Positions 11,634 to 60,590 of a stretch of 64,000 nucleotides of DNA are shown piece by piece. Position 1 is the first letter of the stretch. Each line of letters opens with the position of its first letter. The notes beneath the pieces are model-generated. The model saw nothing but the letters and a program-made list of their open reading frames with translations, was not told where the DNA came from and searched no databases. Source of the DNA: Oscillospiraceae bacterium (GTDB lineage: Bacteria > Bacillota > Clostridia > Oscillospirales > Acutalibacteraceae); NCBI GenBank assembly GCA_902774035.1, contig CACYHA010000015.1, positions 1-64,000 of the forward strand. The letters are read 5' to 3'. Made by a program: the position numbers and the translations under genes.

Positions 11634-14222
11634 TCAAAGAATATAGCGGAACGCAAAGATCACAACATTGGCAAGATTGTTCAGCAGGTAGCGCAGCGCA
11701 GAGAACAGATACGGAAACGTGAAGTTCCATTCGCGCGGACTGTCCAGCGAGCCGAGGAATGAATCGTCATAGATGCGTTCCGGGTGCAAAAAGGCTTTGG
11801 TCTGCATCTTGGCCTTGCAAAGGTGGCGCACTGCCGCCCGAAGCGCTGTGCCGAAACCGACCGGGTCGCGCCGATAAGCCTGCCGCATGGCAAGGATATG
11901 CGACGGCTTTTGCAGCAGCCACACGCCGGTCAGCATGGTGTCGTTGCCGTTGTAAACGCCGAGTACCGGGCTCATGTAGCCGGTGCCGGTAAAGTTGGAA
12001 GAATAATCGGAGATGACATAGCCGTCAAAGCCCCATTCTTTTCGCAGCAGATCCTGCAGCAGCGCACTGCTTGCGCCGCACCAGTCGGGGCCGATCCGGT
12101 TATATGCGCTCATCACGCCGACGGTGCCGCCTTCCTTGATCGCCCGCTCAAACGCGCGCAAATACAGCTCGCGCATCGTTTGCTCGTCAGCCCAGGTAAA
12201 CAGGCCGTTCCGATACGATTCCTGATCGTTCAGTGCAAAATGCTTAACAGTCGTTACAAGCTCAAATCGGTTGGCACCGCGGATGATTGCCGCGCCGAAC
12301 ACACCGGAAAGCAGCGGATCTTCCGAAAAGAATTCGAAGTTTCTGCCGCCCATCGGATTGCGGTGCAGGTTCACGGCGGGTGCATACCAGATGTCCTCGC
12401 CCATATCCGCCGCTTCTTTGCCGGCCCCTTCTCCCAGCCGCTCTGCCAGCGCGGCGTTCCAGGTGCAGGCGATGGCAGTTTCGCAGGGATAGGCCGTGCC
12501 GCTGTCCACATAGACCAGCCCGTGCCGTCCTTTGACAGACGACGGTCCGTCATTGTCTTCGGTTGCCGGAACGCCGAGCCGTGCAACGCCCTGGGTTTCA
12601 TAGCCGGAGTGGATGACGAGATCGATCATTTCGTCGAGTGTGAATTGATCGAGAAATGCATCCCACTTGCTTTCATCTGCGGCAACATCCCGCAGCAGAA
12701 TCGGCTCGTCATATTTGACGCCTGTTTTCGGTGCCTGTCCTGCGGCCGCAGGCTCGGGAAGGACATCTTTGTTTTTTACATCGCTTTCTACAGGGAGTTT
12801 TCGCAGCGCCGGAACAGCGCCGTCTTTTCGTGAGAGGACAGTGAGGCCGTTGTCGGCAGCCGAAAACAGATTTCGGATCGGTGCGCCGGTCACGTCGTCT
12901 GTTTGATAGACCGTCTCTTCCAGTGCAATTGATGTTTCTGCATACGGTGTGCGCACATTGTCGCCGAGGAAAAGGCGGTAGTCGCCTTGCTCCAGTACAT
13001 ATGCCTGCCGGTTCTTCTGATCATAGGACGCCATCTCGCGCAGCGGAAGTGTCAGCGTCACGCGTTGGCTCTTGCCGGGCAAAAGCAGTTTTGTTTTCGT
13101 AAAAGCGCCGAGCACAACCGCGCTCTTTTCGATCCCGCCGGGCGTGTAAGGTGCGCTGTAATACAGCTGAACGACCTCCTTGCCGGGGCAGCCGCCCGTG
13201 TTGCGGACTGTGACCTGCACCCGGATACTGTCACCGGAGCAGGTAAAGGACGCCTTCGTTTTTTCAAAGGTCGTATAGGACAAACCGTAGCCGAACGGAT
13301 ACTGGACTTTTTCCGGTGCAAAGGTTTCAAAATAGCGATAGCCGACATAGATGCCCTCGCTGTATTCCACGTAGTGGTCGCCGTTATTATAGGCATGGGA
13401 GCCGAAGCAGACCGAGGAGGGGTGATCTTCAACGCTGTATGCGACGGTATCCGCCAGTCTTCCGGAAGGGGAGACTTCCCCCGACAGCACCTTTGCCGCG
13501 CCCTCGAAGCCGAATTCGCCGGGAATCCAGACCATCAGCGCGGCTTTGATGTTCTCGTACTGATCCAGCCAGCCCATCTCCATCACGTTTCCCGTGTTGA
13601 ACAGCACGATCACCTCGGAAAAAGCAGCGGTCACTTTTTCCACAAGCCGTTTTTCTTCGCCGGAAAGCCGCAGCGTATCGGCAGAAAGATCTTTGCCCTC
13701 CGCGCTGGTGCGGCTGATGACGAGCAGCGCCGTGTCGGAAAACGCGGCCGCCTGATGCAGAACATCTTTGGTGAGATACTTCACCGGCATTTCGTCAAGC
13801 GAGCTTCTTGCCAGCGCCAGCTGCAGCAGATTATTGATCACGGTGTTGTCTGTTTTCGGCGTAAACGCGCGCACATGTTTTTCATAGAGTTTTTTCAACG
13901 ACGGGTTATAGACGATTCCGGCGCTGTCGAACGCTTCATACAAACTGACAGGATCATCCGTCGTGACTGCGCCCGAACCTGCCCCACCGTAAAACGGCTG
14001 CACAGAGCCCGCGCCGAAGACGTTGACACGCTTCCCCTGCAGCGGCAGCGCGCCGTCTTCGTTTTTGAGCAATACCACACCTTCGCTCTCGATCTCAACG
14101 GCGAGCGATCGCGTTTCGGCAGCCACGTCGGCGTTCAGCGTGCCGCTTTTTGCTGCGGCAAACAAAGTCACAACAGGCAGGAAAAGCAGGCAAACCAGGC
14201 CGGCAGCAAGTCTCTTTTTCAT
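11634..14222 (-). CDS. Secreted GH3 beta-glycosidase with swapped domain order
   Basis: 862 residues with a signal peptide (MKKRLAAGLVCLLFLPVVTLFAAA). The domain order is the reverse of classical GH3: the alpha/beta 'C' domain comes first (SEGVVLLKNEDGALPL, about residues 30-290), then a fibronectin-III-like part (FGYGLSYTTF, about 310-430), and the TIM barrel last (PATEDNDGPSSVKG, TVKHFALNDQE, VGVMSAYNRI), with the nucleophile Asp in GYVISDYSSN. This permuted form is known from Ruminococcus and Butyrivibrio beta-glucosidases. The C-terminus is hydrophobic and may anchor it. First gene of the operon, behind the promoter at 14256. Confidence 0.88.
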   Translation of the reverse strand: MKKRLAAGLVCLLFLPVVTLFAAAKSGTLNADVAAETRSLAVEIESEGVVLLKNEDGALPLQGKRVNVFGAGSVQPFYGGAGSGAVTTDDPVSLYEAFDSAGIVYNPSLKKLYEKHVRAFTPKTDNTVINNLLQLALARSSLDEMPVKYLTKDVLHQAAAFSDTALLVISRTSAEGKDLSADTLRLSGEEKRLVEKVTAAFSEVIVLFNTGNVMEMGWLDQYENIKAALMVWIPGEFGFEGAAKVLSGEVSPSGRLADTVAYSVEDHPSSVCFGSHAYNNGDHYVEYSEGIYVGYRYFETFAPEKVQYPFGYGLSYTTFEKTKASFTCSGDSIRVQVTVRNTGGCPGKEVVQLYYSAPYTPGGIEKSAVVLGAFTKTKLLLPGKSQRVTLTLPLREMASYDQKNRQAYVLEQGDYRLFLGDNVRTPYAETSIALEETVYQTDDVTGAPIRNLFSAADNGLTVLSRKDGAVPALRKLPVESDVKNKDVLPEPAAAGQAPKTGVKYDEPILLRDVAADESKWDAFLDQFTLDEMIDLVIHSGYETQGVARLGVPATEDNDGPSSVKGRHGLVYVDSGTAYPCETAIACTWNAALAERLGEGAGKEAADMGEDIWYAPAVNLHRNPMGGRNFEFFSEDPLLSGVFGAAIIRGANRFELVTTVKHFALNDQESYRNGLFTWADEQTMRELYLRAFERAIKEGGTVGVMSAYNRIGPDWCGASSALLQDLLRKEWGFDGYVISDYSSNFTGTGYMSPVLGVYNGNDTMLTGVWLLQKPSHILAMRQAYRRDPVGFGTALRAAVRHLCKAKMQTKAFLHPERIYDDSFLGSLDSPREWNFTFPYLFSALRYLLNNLANVVIFAFRYIL

Positions 14223-32529: not shown

Positions 32530-32800
32530 TATCAAAAGCCTGCGTACATTCCTTGTATGCCGAGCCCGCACAGCGGTACGCCGAGACAACACCGAAATGG
32601 AGTTTCCGTTTCCGAGAAAGGTGTATAGCGAGAATCCCGGCTGTGAAGATCGGAGTTGCACCCGATCCGGCGACGACCCATGCAAGGCACAATGATACTT
32701 CAATCGAGCGTCCGGCGCGAAAGGCGGGAGGGTGAAATTCCCATGGAGACGGTGCAGCCGTCCGCGCAGGCTTTTACTAAAATCGCAGACAAACCCGATG
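32530..32800 (+). other. Structured, GC-richer non-coding block
   Basis: Several local stems can be drawn: CCGC-aca-GCGG, GATCGG...CCGATC, GGGA...TCCC and GACGG-tgcag-CCGTC, in a segment with no good reading frame and no ribosome site. The density of stems suggests a folded RNA or leader, but I cannot name a family. Confidence 0.35.
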
Positions 32801-40516: not shown

Positions 40517-40609
40517 TGGCGGAGAGCAAGGGATTCGAACCCTCGAAACCGCGTTGACGGTTTACACGATTTCCAGTCGTGCTCCTTCGACCAGCTCGGA
40601 CAACTCTCC
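40517..40609 (-). tRNA. tRNA-Ser(GGA) with encoded CCA
   Basis: The minus strand folds as a long-variable-arm tRNA: acceptor GGAGAGT/GCTCTCC, discriminator G, then CCA; anticodon loop CTGGAAA with GGA; extra arm of Ser type; T-loop TTCGAAT. Length with CCA is 93 nt. Confidence 0.95.
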
Positions 40610-54255: not shown

Positions 54256-56103
54256 TTACTTTCTCAGGCCGAACAGAGCCAGAATCATGTGGATGATTTT
54301 GACGAAGAAGCCGCCGAATCCAGTGTGATCCTCACCGCAGTATTTGCAGGAGCCGGTCTTGGCGGGTTTCTGGTCTTCGCCGCCCTGGGGATTTTCCGGG
54401 TTGGTCGGATTTTCCGGGGTCAGCTTGTCGATGGTGACCTTGTCAAGCTGCTGGGTGCCGGCGGCGTCGGAGAAGTTCTTGCCGCAGGCGCCGCAGTGGA
54501 AGTAATGCACGTTGCCTTCCTGTTCGGTGGTGGCAGTGACCGCGGGAACCTCGGTCAGGTCATGGGCAGCCGTTTTTTCGCCGAGCAGCACCTGCGCAAA
54601 CAAGCCATCGCCGACCAGGGTCACGTCCGTAGCTTTTACGCCGTTGACATAGAAAACGGCATTTTCATTGAATGCATAGGTTGTGCTATTAAGCGAAATG
54701 ATCGCATAGTACTTATAGGTCTTGCCGAGTTCATAGTTGCCCGCGCTGTACTCGCCTCTGTTGCCGAGTTCGCCGGTCGGGTCGGAACCGTTTGCAGGAG
54801 CCTTCTGCGGTGCAAAGTTCCAATTTCTCCACGTATAGCCCGGATAGAGCAGATTGTCGGATTCATAGATCGCAACAAAGGAGGAATTATAATCATGAGT
54901 ACCATAGCTGCCGGCCGGTGCTTCCGGAAGGTTGATCAGCGGCCTGCCCATTCCCAGCGTGACGTCCAAATCCGGGGTGATCGTGACATCATAATCGCTG
55001 CCGACGGGTTTTCCTTCCTTCGGATCGGCGGAGAAGTCGATGTTGACGGTGTTCACTTTTGTTGTTGCATACTTATTATCAACATTGACCACAAGAAGTC
55101 GCTCTTCTTTATACTCTGCACGGAAACCGGTCGTTAAAAATTTACCGTTCAGATAGATCGCTGTATCGTCCGTAAACTTATAGCCTGGACGCAGGCCAAC
55201 GGTTGCATAATAGCAATAATATGTGCCGACTTCATAAGTTTCGCTGATGCCGTTCGCATTTTCATCGTGCAGTACGGGAGAAGAAACCTTCTTCGGCGGC
55301 GCAAAGTTCAACTGATATGGTTTCGGATATACAATTGTCCATCCGTCTGTGATTGCCACACCGGAAAACCGAAATACCCAACCCTCGTTGGACGCGTAAT
55401 CCGGGGCAACGCCCATCGCTTCTACCACATCGGATCTCGCATTATATGCAGCATTGTAAAGCTCCAAGTCGGCAAATTTTGCCTGAGTGGCAGCGGTCGC
55501 TTTCATATCGATGGAATAATCGGAGCCGATGTTGGCGCCGGGAACCGGATTGGCGGAGAAGGTGATGTCAAGTCTGTCGACAGGTTTCACGTCGAAATCC
55601 GCCGATACGATCCTGGGATAGTTGACCCAGTAGCCCCTGGCGTTTTTCGTCAAGGGAACATAAGTTTGCGTACCGAAGTTTAAGCTTGAGATTACAAGCT
55701 CAACGGAGGAATAACTGCTTGCATTCTTAATAACAAAGATGAAACCAGTCGCGTTTTCGGGGAGATAATAGAAATCATCATATTCTGCAAAACTGCTCAA
55801 CGGTACAGAATTAAAATTGCCACTGTCTCCATAATAATATTCAACCGAAATATCATCGGAGAACCAATATGTATCATTGGTGTCTTTAAACTGATCTGTA
55901 ACATTCGTTTCGCCGGAAGTGCCGCGATTTTTGATGAAGTAAGCGTCGTATGGGTCGCAAAGGAAGCCCATTTTTCCGTTATACTTTTGCACATAGAAAC
56001 CGTAAATGGTCAGTGTGTCACCTGCCGCACTGGCAGAGAAGCAGACACTCATGCAGCCAACGAGCATGAGGACCGCAAGGAGAATTGAAAGTGTTTTCTT
56101 CAT
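54256..56103 (-). CDS. Secreted modular protein with CKYCGEDHTG membrane tail
   Basis: 615 residues. A signal peptide (MKKTLSILLAVLMLVGCMSV to ASA) also contains an LVGC lipobox-like sequence. Two similar modules of about 170 residues follow, each opening with an FSANPVPGANIGSDY / FSADPKEGKPVGSDY motif (about 190 and 365). Near the C-terminus come TATTEQEGNVHYFHCGACGKNFSD and the tail GSCKYCGEDHTGFGGF followed by a hydrophobic helix ending in basic residues, a C-terminal signature of secreted proteins in this bacterial group. It is probably anchored and faces outward; the ligand is unknown. Its promoter carries the same palindromes as the two-component operon next door. Confidence 0.75.
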   Translation of the reverse strand: MKKTLSILLAVLMLVGCMSVCFSASAAGDTLTIYGFYVQKYNGKMGFLCDPYDAYFIKNRGTSGETNVTDQFKDTNDTYWFSDDISVEYYYGDSGNFNSVPLSSFAEYDDFYYLPENATGFIFVIKNASSYSSVELVISSLNFGTQTYVPLTKNARGYWVNYPRIVSADFDVKPVDRLDITFSANPVPGANIGSDYSIDMKATAATQAKFADLELYNAAYNARSDVVEAMGVAPDYASNEGWVFRFSGVAITDGWTIVYPKPYQLNFAPPKKVSSPVLHDENANGISETYEVGTYYCYYATVGLRPGYKFTDDTAIYLNGKFLTTGFRAEYKEERLLVVNVDNKYATTKVNTVNIDFSADPKEGKPVGSDYDVTITPDLDVTLGMGRPLINLPEAPAGSYGTHDYNSSFVAIYESDNLLYPGYTWRNWNFAPQKAPANGSDPTGELGNRGEYSAGNYELGKTYKYYAIISLNSTTYAFNENAVFYVNGVKATDVTLVGDGLFAQVLLGEKTAAHDLTEVPAVTATTEQEGNVHYFHCGACGKNFSDAAGTQQLDKVTIDKLTPENPTNPENPQGGEDQKPAKTGSCKYCGEDHTGFGGFFVKIIHMILALFGLRK

Positions 56104-56256: not shown

Positions 56257-56285
56257 ATTATACAAATTGCACGCATAAAAGTAAA
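56257..56285 (-). promoter_or_regulatory. Activator-type promoter of the secreted modular protein
   Basis: On the minus strand TATAAT (56262-56257) with no good -35 box at 17 bp, followed by palindromic sites just upstream (56286-56329). A strong -10 with weak -35 fits activation by a response regulator. Confidence 0.55.
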
Positions 56286-56329
56286 TTCCCACAAGTGATT
56301 AACCATTTATGAGTAATCACTTGTGGGTA
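56286..56329. promoter_or_regulatory. Two inverted response-regulator sites upstream of the secreted protein gene
   Basis: CCCACAAGTGATTA (56288-56301) and its exact inverse TAATCACTTGTGGG (56314-56327). Each matches the TAATCACTTGTGATTA site at 60080-60095 at 14 or 13 of 16 positions. Their centres are 28 bp apart, about -44 and -72 from the likely transcription start. Confidence 0.7.
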
Positions 56330-56352
56330 GTGTTCTTCGCGGCAGGCGCGGC

Positions 56353-57021
56353 TCAGTGTTTGGCTTCTCCATTCGACGCGCCCATGACCTCGCTGACGGC
56401 AGCAACGCCCAGCGCCCGGGCTTTGATGGCAAGCTCCGTGCGGCTGGAAAGCTGGGTCTTGCGCAGCATGTTGCGCACGTGCACCTTGACCGTGTTTTCG
56501 CTGATGCCGAGCCGCGCGGCCACCTCCGCGTTGGAAGCGCCGGTGGTCATCTCGCGCAGAACGGAAAGCTCGCGCTCGGAAAACGAATCGTTATCGACCC
56601 GGCCGATGTTGAAGTGCGGCACAAAGGAGGGATATACCGATTCGCCCGCCATCGTGCGGTCCATGACGTCTAAAAGCTCCATTTCACCCGCTTCCTTGAA
56701 CCAAAAGGAATCCACCCCGGCGGCACGGGCGCGTTCCAAAAAGCTGCGATCCACCAGGCTGGTGACGGTAATGATTTTGATTTCGGGGTGCTTTTTCTTC
56801 ACTTCGGCCGCAGCGGTCAGGCCGTCGGAGCCGTCGTTCATCAGAATGTCGAGCAAAATCAGGTCCACCTTGTATTGCAGCAGATAGATGTCCAGCGCAT
56901 AGGCCGACGGCACCGACACCGCCAGCTCATAGTGGTCGGAATGCTTCACATACTGTTCAAACAGTTCGCGCGGGATCGACTGATCGTCCACGATCATGAC
57001 CCGGGTTTTCGTTTTTTTCAT
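56353..57021 (-). CDS. NarL/LuxR-family response regulator
   Basis: 222 residues. Receiver domain with MIVDDQ (acidic pair), DLILLDILM (phospho-accepting Asp) and SFWFKEAG (Lys), then a LuxR helix-turn-helix (LSVLREMTTGASNAEVAARLGISENTVKVHVRNML, about 155-190). It is phosphorylated by the kinase encoded 12 bases upstream and binds DNA as a dimer. ATG 57021 has GAGAGG at nine bases; the in-frame GTG 57030 overlaps the site. Palindromes upstream of its own operon and of the secreted gene are the likely targets. Confidence 0.87.
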   Translation of the reverse strand: MKKTKTRVMIVDDQSIPRELFEQYVKHSDHYELAVSVPSAYALDIYLLQYKVDLILLDILMNDGSDGLTAAAEVKKKHPEIKIITVTSLVDRSFLERARAAGVDSFWFKEAGEMELLDVMDRTMAGESVYPSFVPHFNIGRVDNDSFSERELSVLREMTTGASNAEVAARLGISENTVKVHVRNMLRKTQLSSRTELAIKARALGVAAVSEVMGASNGEAKH

Positions 57022-57033
57022 GGCTGTCACCTC

Positions 57034-58320
57034 TCAGAATTCAAACTTCAACTGCAGCCGGAACGCCGGTGCGCTTTCAATCGTCAGCGCCACGCCGTTC
57101 TGTTCGGCCAGCTTGCGCAAATCGGCAAGTCCGCCGGTTTCTTTGACCGGCCCCGCGGGCGGGTCGCCGTCGTTGGTCAGCGAAACGGTGGTCTGGCCGT
57201 TTTCTTGCGTGACGCGGACAAACAGGTTCTTGCCGCCGGCGTGCTTCACCGTGTTGGTCAGGCATTCATGGATCGCAATGGTCACCACGTCGCGGTGGAG
57301 CTTCGGCAGGGCTCCTTCATAATGGATGGACGCGCCGATCATAGCCGCCGCCTGTTCCACCGCAAACAGCGGGTCGTCGCTGCGGTCGGGCGTGTTCTGC
57401 GTTTGCAGAATTTTCGTTTCCGTCCGAATCAGGTCGATTAGCGCTTTCCGGTCGCTGCCGGGGTGCGAAAGATAGTTGCGGATGGCCAGCAGGGTGTTGC
57501 CCAGCTCGTCGTGCAGCCGGATCTTCGCGCGCAGGATCTCGCGTTCGCGCATAATGCGATCCATCTGCTGCATATAGTCGCGCAGCTTCCGGTTCACCTT
57601 TTCCAAACGGGCATTGCGCTTGCGCAGCTCAACAAGCGCGCGGTAACGCTCGGTCGTGTCAAAGGCGACGGTTTCGGTCATCTGTTTCCCGTCGATCGTG
57701 ACGGTTTGCTGTTTCAGCCGCCAGACGGTTGCATCGGGCAGCAGCAGGAAGGTGTTGTTTTCATCTTTGTCCACGCTGCAGCCAGGTTGCAGATCGCCCG
57801 TCTCCAGCCGACGGTTCATTCGGTGGGCGTCTGAGACGTTTTCGCCGAAGGCCGCGTGGCTGATGCCCTGCATCCGGTCGTTCACCAGCCGCGGGAATCC
57901 GTCGGTCAGGCTGAAGCAGATACCGTCCGGCAACTGGTCGAATCCTTCGCAAACCGACCGGGCAGAAAGCGTGCGGCGCGACAGCCGCATCAGATGGACG
58001 GCAAGCGCTGTTTCCGCCGCCAACAACAGCAGCGCCAGCAGGACGAACACCCATATCGGGAGCTCCAGCGTCGGCTCCGCCCAGGACGGAACCGGAGCGG
58101 CATAGTCGGCAAGATCGTGCATATACACGGAATAGATCTCGATCATCCATTCCGGCCAGAATGCAAGCAGCGCAAAAACGGCGCAGATGATTTTATGGGG
58201 CAGCGTCTTCGGCTTACCCACGGCATACAGCGCGCAGAGCACGGCGCCGAGGCAAAGCAGCAAAAACGCAAAGCCCAAGCCGCGCATGGCGCTGAGCGGG
58301 AGGTCAATCAATCGCATCAT
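57034..58320 (-). CDS. Membrane sensor histidine kinase (HisKA_3/NarX-like)
   Basis: 428 residues. Three or four membrane spans (about 10-125), a linker, then a dimerization helix with RLHDELGNTLLAIRNYL (phospho-His) and the ATPase domain with HECLTNTVKHAGG (N box) and GGLADLRKLAEQNG (G box). It phosphorylates the regulator encoded next. Its start lies inside the end of the upstream gene (17-base overlap). GGAGG precedes the ATG pair. The core matches the layout of the upstream 562-residue protein, suggesting duplication. Confidence 0.83.
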   Translation of the reverse strand: MMRLIDLPLSAMRGLGFAFLLLCLGAVLCALYAVGKPKTLPHKIICAVFALLAFWPEWMIEIYSVYMHDLADYAAPVPSWAEPTLELPIWVFVLLALLLLAAETALAVHLMRLSRRTLSARSVCEGFDQLPDGICFSLTDGFPRLVNDRMQGISHAAFGENVSDAHRMNRRLETGDLQPGCSVDKDENNTFLLLPDATVWRLKQQTVTIDGKQMTETVAFDTTERYRALVELRKRNARLEKVNRKLRDYMQQMDRIMREREILRAKIRLHDELGNTLLAIRNYLSHPGSDRKALIDLIRTETKILQTQNTPDRSDDPLFAVEQAAAMIGASIHYEGALPKLHRDVVTIAIHECLTNTVKHAGGKNLFVRVTQENGQTTVSLTNDGDPPAGPVKETGGLADLRKLAEQNGVALTIESAPAFRLQLKFEF

Positions 58321-59992
58321 GCTGTACCTCCTCCCCGCTGTTTTTCGATGTTAGAACAAAACGGACAGAAATTTTTTCCAGGTTGCGCCTTGCTTCTTTT
58401 TCCGCGCACCGCAGCCGCTGCAGGATCTGCTGCGAGGGCTCCTGCAAAAGATCCGCCGTCATATGAAAGACGCTGCCGCCCTCGGCCTCGGGTGCAAGTT
58501 CAACCGTGACCCGCCGCAGCACGGGCAGCACAGATTCCAGCACCGATTCAAACGCTTCATACAGCAGGACCGTGTCCTGCACCGGGGCCTGCCAGGCCGG
58601 AGCCACGGAAATCTCGCAAAAAACGCCGCCCAACGACAGGGCCTTTGCCGATTCCGTCAGGCAAAGCTGCATATCGGCGCCGGTCAGCACCGGGTGGGTA
58701 TCCGCCTGCAGCAGCAAACTGCTGCGGCGCTTGCAATAGGCCAGCAAGACGCTCACACGGTACAGCACTGCGCAAAACGCTTTCTCCTCTTCGGGCAGCG
58801 TGTGCAGCCATTTGCTCAGCGTTTCCAGTTGGGGATGAAGAGAATCGATCACGCTGTCATACAACTGGATCTGCGCGGCGGTTTGTTTGCGGCTTTCTTC
58901 CATTTCGGCAATCGCACGCAGCATATTGTTTTCTTCGGCCAGCTCTTCGGCGGCGTTGTCGAGCGCTTCGTTCAGCCGCCGCAGCTCGGCAACATCCTCT
59001 GTCCAATAGAACCATCCGCCCTGCACGGGGCGCACCTTGAGCAGCGTGCTGCCGTTGGGCAGCAGCAGCTCGCCGTTGCCGGCCCGGCGCAATTGTTCCG
59101 GCGTCGGGCGGACCCCTTCGGCAGAGGTTTGCTGCACCTGGTATTGCAGATCGGAAAGACCGACGCGCAGCGAAGACGCGGCAAACGCCGCCGGATAGCC
59201 CTTGTTGCTTGCCACAATTCGCGAAACAACAAGGCTTTCCCAAAACGCAATGGTACAAAGACAGATGTATTCGGGCAGATTGACGATTCTGTCTAACCAC
59301 GAGATGACGCCGAAATCAAAGACGTAACCGAGTCCGAACAGGCCGGTGACCGCCAGCACAAGCAGCGGCAGCCATGCCGTTTTGAACAGACGACGGTTGA
59401 CGGCGGACTGAACCGCCAGCGCGAGCACACTGCTCACCAGCAGGGCGACCCAGACGACAACGGCAATATAGAGCGGACCGCGAGTGTAACTGCTTTGCCA
59501 GTTTGCAAAGTCCGGCGCGAAGCGGAACGCAGCCTGATGAAAATCGTTGGTCAAAACGCCGGCAACAAGCAGCATGGCGGGCAGATACAGCCAGTTCCAA
59601 TACCAGGAAGCACAATAAGCGTTCGGCTTGCCGATATTCAGCGCGGCGCGGAACATCATCAGCGCGCCAAAGATGATGGGAACGTAATAGCCGTACCACA
59701 GATAGCGCTGCAGGGGACTGTCCCACATCACGAAGGTGTATTTTGCTGTACGCAGAAGATTCAGCAGCACGAAAGCCGCCACCAGAAGGGACATATAGGC
59801 ACGCATCTGCTTTTGCGGAAACCGGCGGTAAACGCTGTAGCCCCAGACAACATAGATGGAGTTGAAAATGAGGCAGTTGAAAAGCACGCCCGGAAAATGC
59901 AAACCGAGCTTGATATTGTTGAACAGGCCGGCCCCGACCACCAGCGCAAAGCTGACCAAAAGAGCGCGCAGGCCTTTTTTGCTGAAATCCAC
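58304..59992 (-). CDS. 7TM-type sensor with degenerate kinase core
   Basis: 562 residues. About seven hydrophobic spans in the first 260 residues, a PAS-like segment (about 270-340, QGGWFYWTEDVAELRRLNE), a helix and a kinase-like C-terminus. Alignment to the downstream kinase puts LYDSVIDSLHPQLETL against LHDELGNTLLAIRNYL, so Tyr replaces the phospho-His, and the N box is unrecognisable (YEAFESVLESVLPVL). It may be a pseudokinase sensor that partners the active kinase. The start is GTG 59992 with a purine-rich GAAGGGGG site upstream. Confidence 0.7.
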   Translation of the reverse strand: MDFSKKGLRALLVSFALVVGAGLFNNIKLGLHFPGVLFNCLIFNSIYVVWGYSVYRRFPQKQMRAYMSLLVAAFVLLNLLRTAKYTFVMWDSPLQRYLWYGYYVPIIFGALMMFRAALNIGKPNAYCASWYWNWLYLPAMLLVAGVLTNDFHQAAFRFAPDFANWQSSYTRGPLYIAVVVWVALLVSSVLALAVQSAVNRRLFKTAWLPLLVLAVTGLFGLGYVFDFGVISWLDRIVNLPEYICLCTIAFWESLVVSRIVASNKGYPAAFAASSLRVGLSDLQYQVQQTSAEGVRPTPEQLRRAGNGELLLPNGSTLLKVRPVQGGWFYWTEDVAELRRLNEALDNAAEELAEENNMLRAIAEMEESRKQTAAQIQLYDSVIDSLHPQLETLSKWLHTLPEEEKAFCAVLYRVSVLLAYCKRRSSLLLQADTHPVLTGADMQLCLTESAKALSLGGVFCEISVAPAWQAPVQDTVLLYEAFESVLESVLPVLRRVTVELAPEAEGGSVFHMTADLLQEPSQQILQRLRCAEKEARRNLEKISVRFVLTSKNSGEEVQHDAID

Positions 59993-60049
59993 GGTTCCGC
60001 CCCCTTCCTCGCAAGCGCGTGTTCCGGAAAATACACTTTTCCATTTACA

Positions 60050-60095
60050 ATTATATCACAAACAATAACTAAAAGTATATAATCACTTGTGATTA
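60050..60095 (-). promoter_or_regulatory. Two-component operon promoter with 16-bp palindromic activator site
   Basis: TATAAT on the minus strand (60055-60050), weak -35, and the perfect palindrome TAATCAC-TT-GTGATTA at 60080-60095, centred about 44 bp upstream of the expected transcription start. The site recurs at 56286-56329. Confidence 0.7.
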
Positions 60096-60409
60096 GTTGG
60101 AACGGAGGCATTTTGTCGATTTCTGCTCGCAAGGAATGATGTTTGATCGAGTGGATACCGCAGTCGAATTCTTCCATCATCGTTACAGCCGAAAGCAATC
60201 GTTCCGTATGCACCGGCGCAACAGATGGTACGGTCGTTTTTCAGAACCATGACGCGGCCGCATGCACGCTCTGTCGGTTTTACGCCGTCTTCAAAGCGGA
60301 ATCCGGCGCTTTCCGCTTCCGCAAGGAACTGCTTGCCGGACGCCTCGTCTGTCAGTTCAACGTAAATGGGTTTGTTTGGGTTTTCGAGTTGTTTCAGGAT
60401 GTTTTTCAT
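60083..60409 (-). CDS. Hypothetical protein under SAM riboswitch control
   Basis: 108 residues beginning MKNILKQLENPNKPIYVELTD. The central part has a conserved look (GKQFLAEAESAGFRFEDGVKPTERACGRVMVL, then TICCAGAYGTIAFG) with two adjacent Cys. Not recognised as a known enzyme. GAGGT precedes ATG 60409. It is the first gene after a promoter, SAM riboswitch and terminator on the same strand, so its expression should follow methionine or SAM supply. The stop overlaps the palindrome of the next operon. Confidence 0.65.
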   Translation of the reverse strand: MKNILKQLENPNKPIYVELTDEASGKQFLAEAESAGFRFEDGVKPTERACGRVMVLKNDRTICCAGAYGTIAFGCNDDGRIRLRYPLDQTSFLASRNRQNASVPTNHK

Positions 60410-60454: not shown

Positions 60455-60483
60455 AAAAAACACCCCATCGTCCCGATGAGGTG
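60455..60483 (-). terminator. Riboswitch expression-platform terminator
   Basis: Minus strand CACCTCATCG-gga-CGATGGGGTG followed by TTTTTTCG, directly after the SAM aptamer. Confidence 0.85.
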
Positions 60484-60590
60484 TCTGCTGCAGTCAGTTG
60501 CCCATCGGTCAAGCTTTAGCACCTTACCCTGCGGCAGGTTGCTGTGCGGTCAATGGGCTTGTCCCTCGCGCACTCTTTATAGGCTGGCTA
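60484..60590 (-). promoter_or_regulatory. SAM riboswitch (S-box, SAM-I clan)
   Basis: Minus strand shows the S-box order: AAAGAG, GCGAGGGACAAGCCC, ATTGACC, CAGCAACC, then AAGGTGCTAAA. GAGGGA, GCAACC and GGTGCTAA are the hallmark conserved parts. GCCCATTG can also pair with CGATGGGC further on. A terminator follows at 60455-60483. Confidence 0.85.

Follow-up and report, generated by a model that had tools for sequence, protein, structure and literature searches.

We have identified, in a 64,000-nucleotide stretch of an Oscillospiraceae bacterium genome (contig CACYHA010000015.1, positions 1 to 64,000; hereafter the window), a set of short palindromes that are probably the operators of a NarL/FixJ-type response regulator encoded next to them. 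The regulator belongs to a three-gene operon together with two kinase-like proteins, here called HK1 and HK2; one palindrome precedes this operon and two precede the neighbouring gene for a secreted protein. The regulator is predicted to bind these sites and to activate both its own operon and genes for secreted or surface proteins. The evidence, read from the sequence, lies in the sites, their geometry and conservation, an association between site and recognition helix, and degenerate motifs in HK1.

Each site is a 16-mer with two 7-base arms and a 2-base centre (a 7-2-7 inverted repeat). The operon palindrome, TAATCACTTGTGATTA, is found at 60080-60095 on the (-) strand (0 mismatches), with its centre at about -44.5 when the last base of TATAAT is numbered -7; the original prediction had placed it near -44. 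The secreted-protein gene has a proximal site (56286-56301, (-) strand, 3 mismatches, centre at about -43.5) that abuts the -35 position, and a distal site (56314-56329, (+) strand, 2 mismatches to TAATCACTTGTGATTA, centre at about -71.5); the two stand inverted to each other, in agreement with the near-copies at -44 and -72 described earlier. TATAAT follows after 24 bp at the operon site and after 23 bp at the proximal site. Both -10 boxes, called good in the original prediction, are perfect: TATAAT at 60055-60050, within an extended -10 TGA TATAAT (60050-60058, (-) strand), and TATAAT at 56257-56262 (-). The -35 boxes had been called poor, which is right for the operon promoter, where the best -35 has 3/6 matches and TGn precedes the -10, and only partly right for the secreted-protein gene, whose -35-like TTTACT (56280-56285, (-) strand) has 4/6 matches.

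In the window, four rows come within three mismatches of the 16-mer against 0.22 expected, and 0/100 shuffles reach four; the four rows are three places, since the palindrome is counted on both strands. In the window's own genome (G000; 2,295,736 bases, 85% complete), matches with at most two mismatches are confined to these two loci, and at three mismatches there are scattered extra matches, nine rows in total with four for the reversed control. A genome-wide motif scan had been proposed as a check: the core 12-mer common to all three sites is not scattered and occurs three times, all at these promoters (reversed control 0). With the spacing included, the pattern TCACNNGTGRN{24,28}TATAAT has eight matches in 3/34 genus genomes (reversed pattern two), four of them in the own genome, at the two window promoters and at two places on contig C4. 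Two 3-mismatch matches (C6:108088 and C6:189418) were set aside, as they have no TATAAT at the right distance.

The sites are also kept in relatives that have the loci, a comparison likewise proposed beforehand. A system on contig C59 of genome G011 (regulator 85% and HK2 87% identical to those of the window) keeps the site pair in front of its secreted gene (61% identical), the upstream end being lost to the contig edge, and genome G030 has matching palindromes at two places, the operon promoter and the secreted gene that comes next. Neither the genome-wide scan nor this comparison, both named beforehand as able to refute the prediction, spoke against it. The distal site of G011 has a strong arm, TAGTCAC, the same as in several other loci. 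On C4 of the own genome, a decayed paralogous system (L083, 3309-9292), with HK1 interrupted, HK2 truncated and the regulator nearly gone, still has both palindromes and its secreted gene. A further set of HK1, HK2 and regulator genes in the own genome (L048, contig C1, 8506-11857) has the recognition helix TVAFHIK; in its surroundings neither a TCAC nor a CTACA site was found.

The class of site follows the recognition helix of the regulator encoded next to it. In the window this helix is NTVKVHVRN, and among 78 loci with a readable helix a TCAC site with a -10 box accompanies the helix TVK[VAK][HY]VR in 9/9 loci and the remaining helices in 0/69, counts that are not independent, since the loci are related and the sites were already known when the helix class was drawn. 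The TCAC loci fall in one clade of 20 rows, whose support of 94/87 is not firm; inside it the counts are 9/9 and 0/11. Among the nine are L102 and L120, whose records carry the titles Eubacterium and Lachnospira, respectively. The full TCAC pattern was found in 0/7 whole genomes whose loci lack TCAC sites, and seven positive genomes gave 14 full-pattern matches (reversed control 1). Six of these fall at new places: secreted proteins follow two of them (L175 and L180), a 187-amino-acid protein follows one (L178) and an 85-amino-acid frame another (L183).

In the same genus, regulators of a sister clade have a TVRDY helix, and there a different word, CCCTACAttTGTAGGG, stands at the same place and spacing before the -10 box. 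This version gives 24 sites in 12/34 genus genomes and none for the reversed control. CTACA sites occur in 10/10 genomes with a TVRDY regulator and in two of the other 24, and a CTACA site lies within 1600 bp behind the regulator in 8/10 TVRDY loci and in 0/68 others.

The spacing itself can be seen in a survey of 1443 distinct TATAAT contexts from 108 sources (the window and the loci): among 42 perfect 7-2-7 repeats near TATAAT, 26 sit 22-24 bp upstream, a peak whose strength a binomial value overstates, the loci being related. These 26 comprise 20 repeats of the CTACA clade, three AT-rich ones of other kinds (L136, L125 and L142) and the rest from the window, L099 and L169. When at least 6/7 pairs and a looser -10 are allowed, the peak downstream of the regulator remains at 22-23 bp (nine and seven matches), and upstream of HK1 there is only a slight peak (four matches at 24 bp, with six at 14 bp and five at 29 bp).

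In Ruminococcus bromii another word, TGTGCCgtttGGCACA, has two sites in each of two loci (L118 and L122): TGTGCCGTTTGGCACA at 13483 lies behind the regulator, 22 bp before TATAAT, and a second similar site at about 14165 is accompanied by TACAAT. We treat this word as a lead only, because the relaxed pattern also matches two of four other genomes, once each and with other letters. Ten further loci, including the R. albus group (L103, L106, L107, L117 and L119), yielded no convincing 7-2-7 class.

The secreted protein of the window (54256-56103, (-) strand, 615 amino acids) has an N-terminal signal-like segment and a C-terminal CKYCGEDHTGF tail followed by a hydrophobic stretch and a basic end; no Pfam family scores above its cut-off. 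The tail, CKYCGEDHTGF...FGLRK (54259-54360, (-) strand), looks like a C-terminal sorting or anchoring signal; it has 12 own-genome matches at E<1e-5, including itself, and 23 at E<=10. A structure model built from a two-row alignment had a predicted local distance difference test score (pLDDT) of 33 and was not used. Elsewhere in the own genome, a site at C20:18892 (TAGTCACTTGTGACGA, 3 mismatches), with TAAAAT 23 bp after it, precedes an 891-amino-acid leucine-rich repeat (LRR)/InlB-repeat protein whose C-terminal tail is of this kind too. Judged by a simple rule of hydrophobicity, 21/29 non-operon targets begin with a signal-like segment. Nine targets scanned with Pfam gave LRR_5, InlB-type repeats, fn3, Big_2, HEAT, 5'-nucleotidase and a Band_7_1/zinc-ribbon protein, and two of the nine gave no family. 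The CTACA-clade target with the Band_7_1 domain (PF13421) presumably resembles the YdjI-type SPFH/zinc-ribbon proteins of Bacillus subtilis; we know of no regulatory link between such proteins and the three-gene system.

The regulator (56353-57030, (-) strand, 225 amino acids) consists of a receiver and a LuxR/GerE helix-turn-helix domain, both above the Pfam cut-offs (Response_reg 3.1e-15, GerE 4e-19), and its phospho-acceptor D61 is invariant in 20/20 aligned rows. Its sequence places it among the NarL/FixJ response regulators, which the 7-2-7 sites fit in sequence and spacing. Among the 25 of 63 NCBIfam families listed no equivalog threshold was reached (MadR 88.5 against 300, NarP 82.9 against 343, NarL 80.5 against 250).

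HK2 (57034-58320, (-) strand, 428 amino acids) is a sensor kinase with H270, an N box at N356 and a GG box; the Pfam HATPase models score below their cut-offs. HK1 (58304-59992, (-) strand, 562 amino acids) combines a transmembrane (TM) bundle with a kinase-like part and has Tyr378 where HK2 has its phospho-His; its match to Pfam HisKA_7TM (17.8 bits) is under the cut-off of 28.6. In 86 rows of HK1 the phospho-His column holds Tyr in 75, His in five, Phe in two, Val, Leu and Met in one each and a gap in one, and the aligned N-box column is variable (Asn in 6/86); in HK2 the same columns hold His in 81/81 and Asn in 80/81, with one gap. By the phospho-His and N-box Asn of active sensor kinases, HK2 looks like one and HK1 does not. 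In a profile comparison of the 86 HK1 with the 81 HK2 rows, the PAS-like, DHp (dimerization and histidine phosphotransfer) and ATPase-like parts align (pairwise E 1e-9) and the HK1 Tyr is superposed on the HK2 His. The structure model of HK1 (pLDDT 76.5, predicted template modelling score 0.46) combines a TM bundle with a PAS-like part and long DHp-like helices and ends in an ATPase-like part. A fold search with it gave two matches at E<=0.001, both to one blue-light photoreceptor, 4gcz, which we take to be a PAS-histidine kinase, at TM-scores of 0.2 or less; further down, a titled histidine kinase stood at rank 17, along with many G-protein-coupled receptors at poor superposition. We read the search only as pointing to a kinase-like part plus a TM bundle. 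These features suggest that HK1 is a pseudokinase sensor acting through HK2.

This triad is conserved. A scan with the HK1 alignment gave 188 relatives and 80 named loci, and HK1 relatives are present in 34/250 genomes drawn from the family. From 101 loci 12 duplicates were removed; among the 87 with HK1, HK2 follows in 85 and a LuxR-type regulator downstream in 78, some loci ending before the regulator. The hosts are rumen and gut Oscillospiraceae and Lachnospiraceae, R. albus, R. bromii, Blautia, Faecalicatena, Allobaculum and others. The carriers include records under the names Ruminococcus albus, R. bromii, Blautia glucerasea and Faecalicatena contorta, for each of which named strains exist. 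A record titled Micrarchaeota archaeon (L134) and a Clostridiales record (L129) have almost the same triad, and the former is probably a mis-binned contig.

We infer the following chain of events, including binding, phosphotransfer, the pairing of HK1 with HK2, the direction of regulation and the signal. HK1, with its TM bundle, no phospho-His and no recognisable ATP-binding N box, would sense an extracellular or membrane signal and control its catalytic partner HK2, which would phosphorylate the regulator. A regulator dimer would then bind the 7-2-7 sites near -44 and aid RNA polymerase at promoters where a good -10 is paired with a mediocre -35. In this way it would raise its own operon (positive autoregulation in the lineage of the window) and genes for secreted or surface proteins, namely the neighbour in the window, a 992-amino-acid protein on C4 and the 891-amino-acid LRR/InlB-repeat protein on C20.

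That the regulator binds the sites and represses is unlikely. Promoters with sites do have a somewhat better mean -35 score than other TATAAT contexts (3.33/6 against 2.72), many of which are not promoters, but the -35 has at most 4/6 matches in 32 of 36 site promoters and 6/6 in none. In the CTACA clade, seven of nine operon promoters, which are free of the palindrome, have TTGATA-17-TATAAT, and a centre at -44.5 is a position of NarL as an activator at ogt (PMC7419079). It is quite unlikely that the pair at 56286-56329 is mainly the intrinsic terminator of the regulator operon, with a 14-bp stem and a 12-nt loop, rather than a pair of operators. The pair does lie directly behind the regulator stop codon, and the 91-nt stretch around it folds at -31.2 kcal/mol (z -4.6); yet the arm sequences are found again at 60080-60095, where no operon ends, the hairpin is followed by AATTTACTTTT in place of a T run, and other loci show a single palindrome at an equal distance from the -10. 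In G011, moreover, one stem pair is lost as the arm changes to TAGTCAC, which other loci also have. A terminator scan does not list 56286-56329, but it allows loops of 3-8 only.

We consider it very unlikely that the sites are those of another regulator, in charge of operon and secreted gene alike. The CTACA sites of G005 and G009, where no regulator was detected, would fit such an owner, but the sites lie at this very operon, and their class changes with the recognition helix of the regulator beside them. Chance likeness is extremely improbable: the motif is short and weak 3-mismatch matches occur elsewhere in the genome, but neither the shuffled and reversed-pattern controls nor the peak in the distance to TATAAT would be expected from it.

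Several observations weigh against activation by the operon's own regulator, or against parts of that proposal. L099, with the helix TVKVHIR, carries another word, TACCTACTTGTAGGTA, at its operon promoter. The seven positive genomes were chosen for loci with sites, so their 7/7 is no test, and two of the six new-place matches (L170 and L181) look like chance. G005 (72% complete) and G009 (98%) have CTACA sites and no regulator at E<=1e-30, and therefore weigh against a strict link between site and regulator. A signal-like segment is missing from 8/29 non-operon targets, and the targets read in the L102 genome do not look secreted. As to the pseudokinase, His stands at the phospho-site in 5/86 HK1 rows and Asn at the N-box column in 6/86, and an earlier profile comparison of 13 HK1 with 14 HK2 rows was weak (probability 2%), only that of 86 with 81 rows being strong. 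Autoregulation, too, is not general. An upstream site with a -10 is present in 4/7 testable loci of the TCAC helix class (the window, L033, L095 and L096) and lacking in L094, L102 and L120; it is also present at L091 and L097, loci not containing the regulator. The palindrome was found in 0/9 testable operon promoters of the CTACA clade, which argues that autoregulation is a trait of particular lineages and not universal.

Transcription could also reach the operon from farther upstream. The operon palindrome overlaps the final codons (N-H-K-stop) of a small open reading frame (ORF) ending at 60083, and a SAM riboswitch (60462-60585, (-) strand; Rfam RF00162, 61.8 bits), behind a perfect TTGACA-16-TATAAT, precedes this 108-amino-acid ORF (60083-60409, (-) strand), which has no Pfam family. 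The terminator scan lists no terminator-like site between this ORF and HK1, so that transcription from the riboswitch gene could possibly run on into the operon. Elsewhere the window contains a pemK RNA motif (RF02913) at 32689-32746 (+) and a tRNA-Ser gene at 40517-40609 (-).

Taken more widely, the data would fit an unnamed three-component system widespread in Clostridia, in which a membrane pseudokinase with Tyr for His senses and steers a partner kinase, and in which the operator word of the NarL-type regulator (TCACnnGTGA; CCCTACAnnTGTAGGG; possibly TACCTACnnGTAGGTA, and TGTGCCnnnnGGCACA in R. bromii) changed together with the recognition helix while spacing and type of target were kept; we regard the chances of this wider picture as evenly balanced. 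If true, these words and helices would form a natural series from which the protein-DNA code of NarL-type regulators could be read. The helix-site pairs make this specificity code testable with short DNA. For a signalling system found in Clostridia of the rumen and gut, the sites supply a candidate operator, together with the geometry of its promoters and a list of targets. A conserved kinase-like protein with Tyr, encoded next to its kinase, is an independent case for the study of pseudokinase function.

In a literature search with subscription journals poorly covered, none of the listed titles and abstract starts concerned the triad; its parts can be compared with known systems. Tyr replaces the phospho-His also in DivL, a kinase-like protein of Caulobacter; DivL works via DivK~P and the CckA phosphorelay (PMC4211667), whereas HK1 carries a TM bundle, shares an operon with a kinase and a NarL-type regulator of its own, and lacks a conserved N-box Asn. 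In Corynebacterium glutamicum, a pseudokinase variant of ChrS, catalytically dead, acts by way of the partner kinase HrrS; that variant is a laboratory-evolved frameshift (PMC9491836), while HK1 is a conserved gene. Two kinase-like proteins and one regulator are likewise encoded at one locus in the three-component FasBCA system of group A Streptococcus, with one proposed pseudokinase and a heterodimer supported by two-hybrid data. In that system FasA is ComE-like, FasC keeps the His needed for activity and the output is the small RNA FasX (PMC12675982); the triad, with its GerE/LuxR-type regulator, differs in all three and would not be classed as FasBCA-type.

A close parallel to the promoters is that of Escherichia coli NarL, which binds 7-2-7 inverted heptamers (PMC7419079; see also PMC4549865); at ogt these lie at -44.5 and -77.5, at yeaR-yoaG directly before the -35. 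The heptamers of the window differ from those described there, and its sensors and targets are unrelated, with no link to nitrate; the second site lies at about -71.5 instead of -77.5. The likeness is in the regulator type and the geometry: at ogt, too, a site at -44.5 has a companion farther upstream and the -10 is extended, like that of the window operon, and at yeaR a single site stands next to the -35 (PMC7419079).

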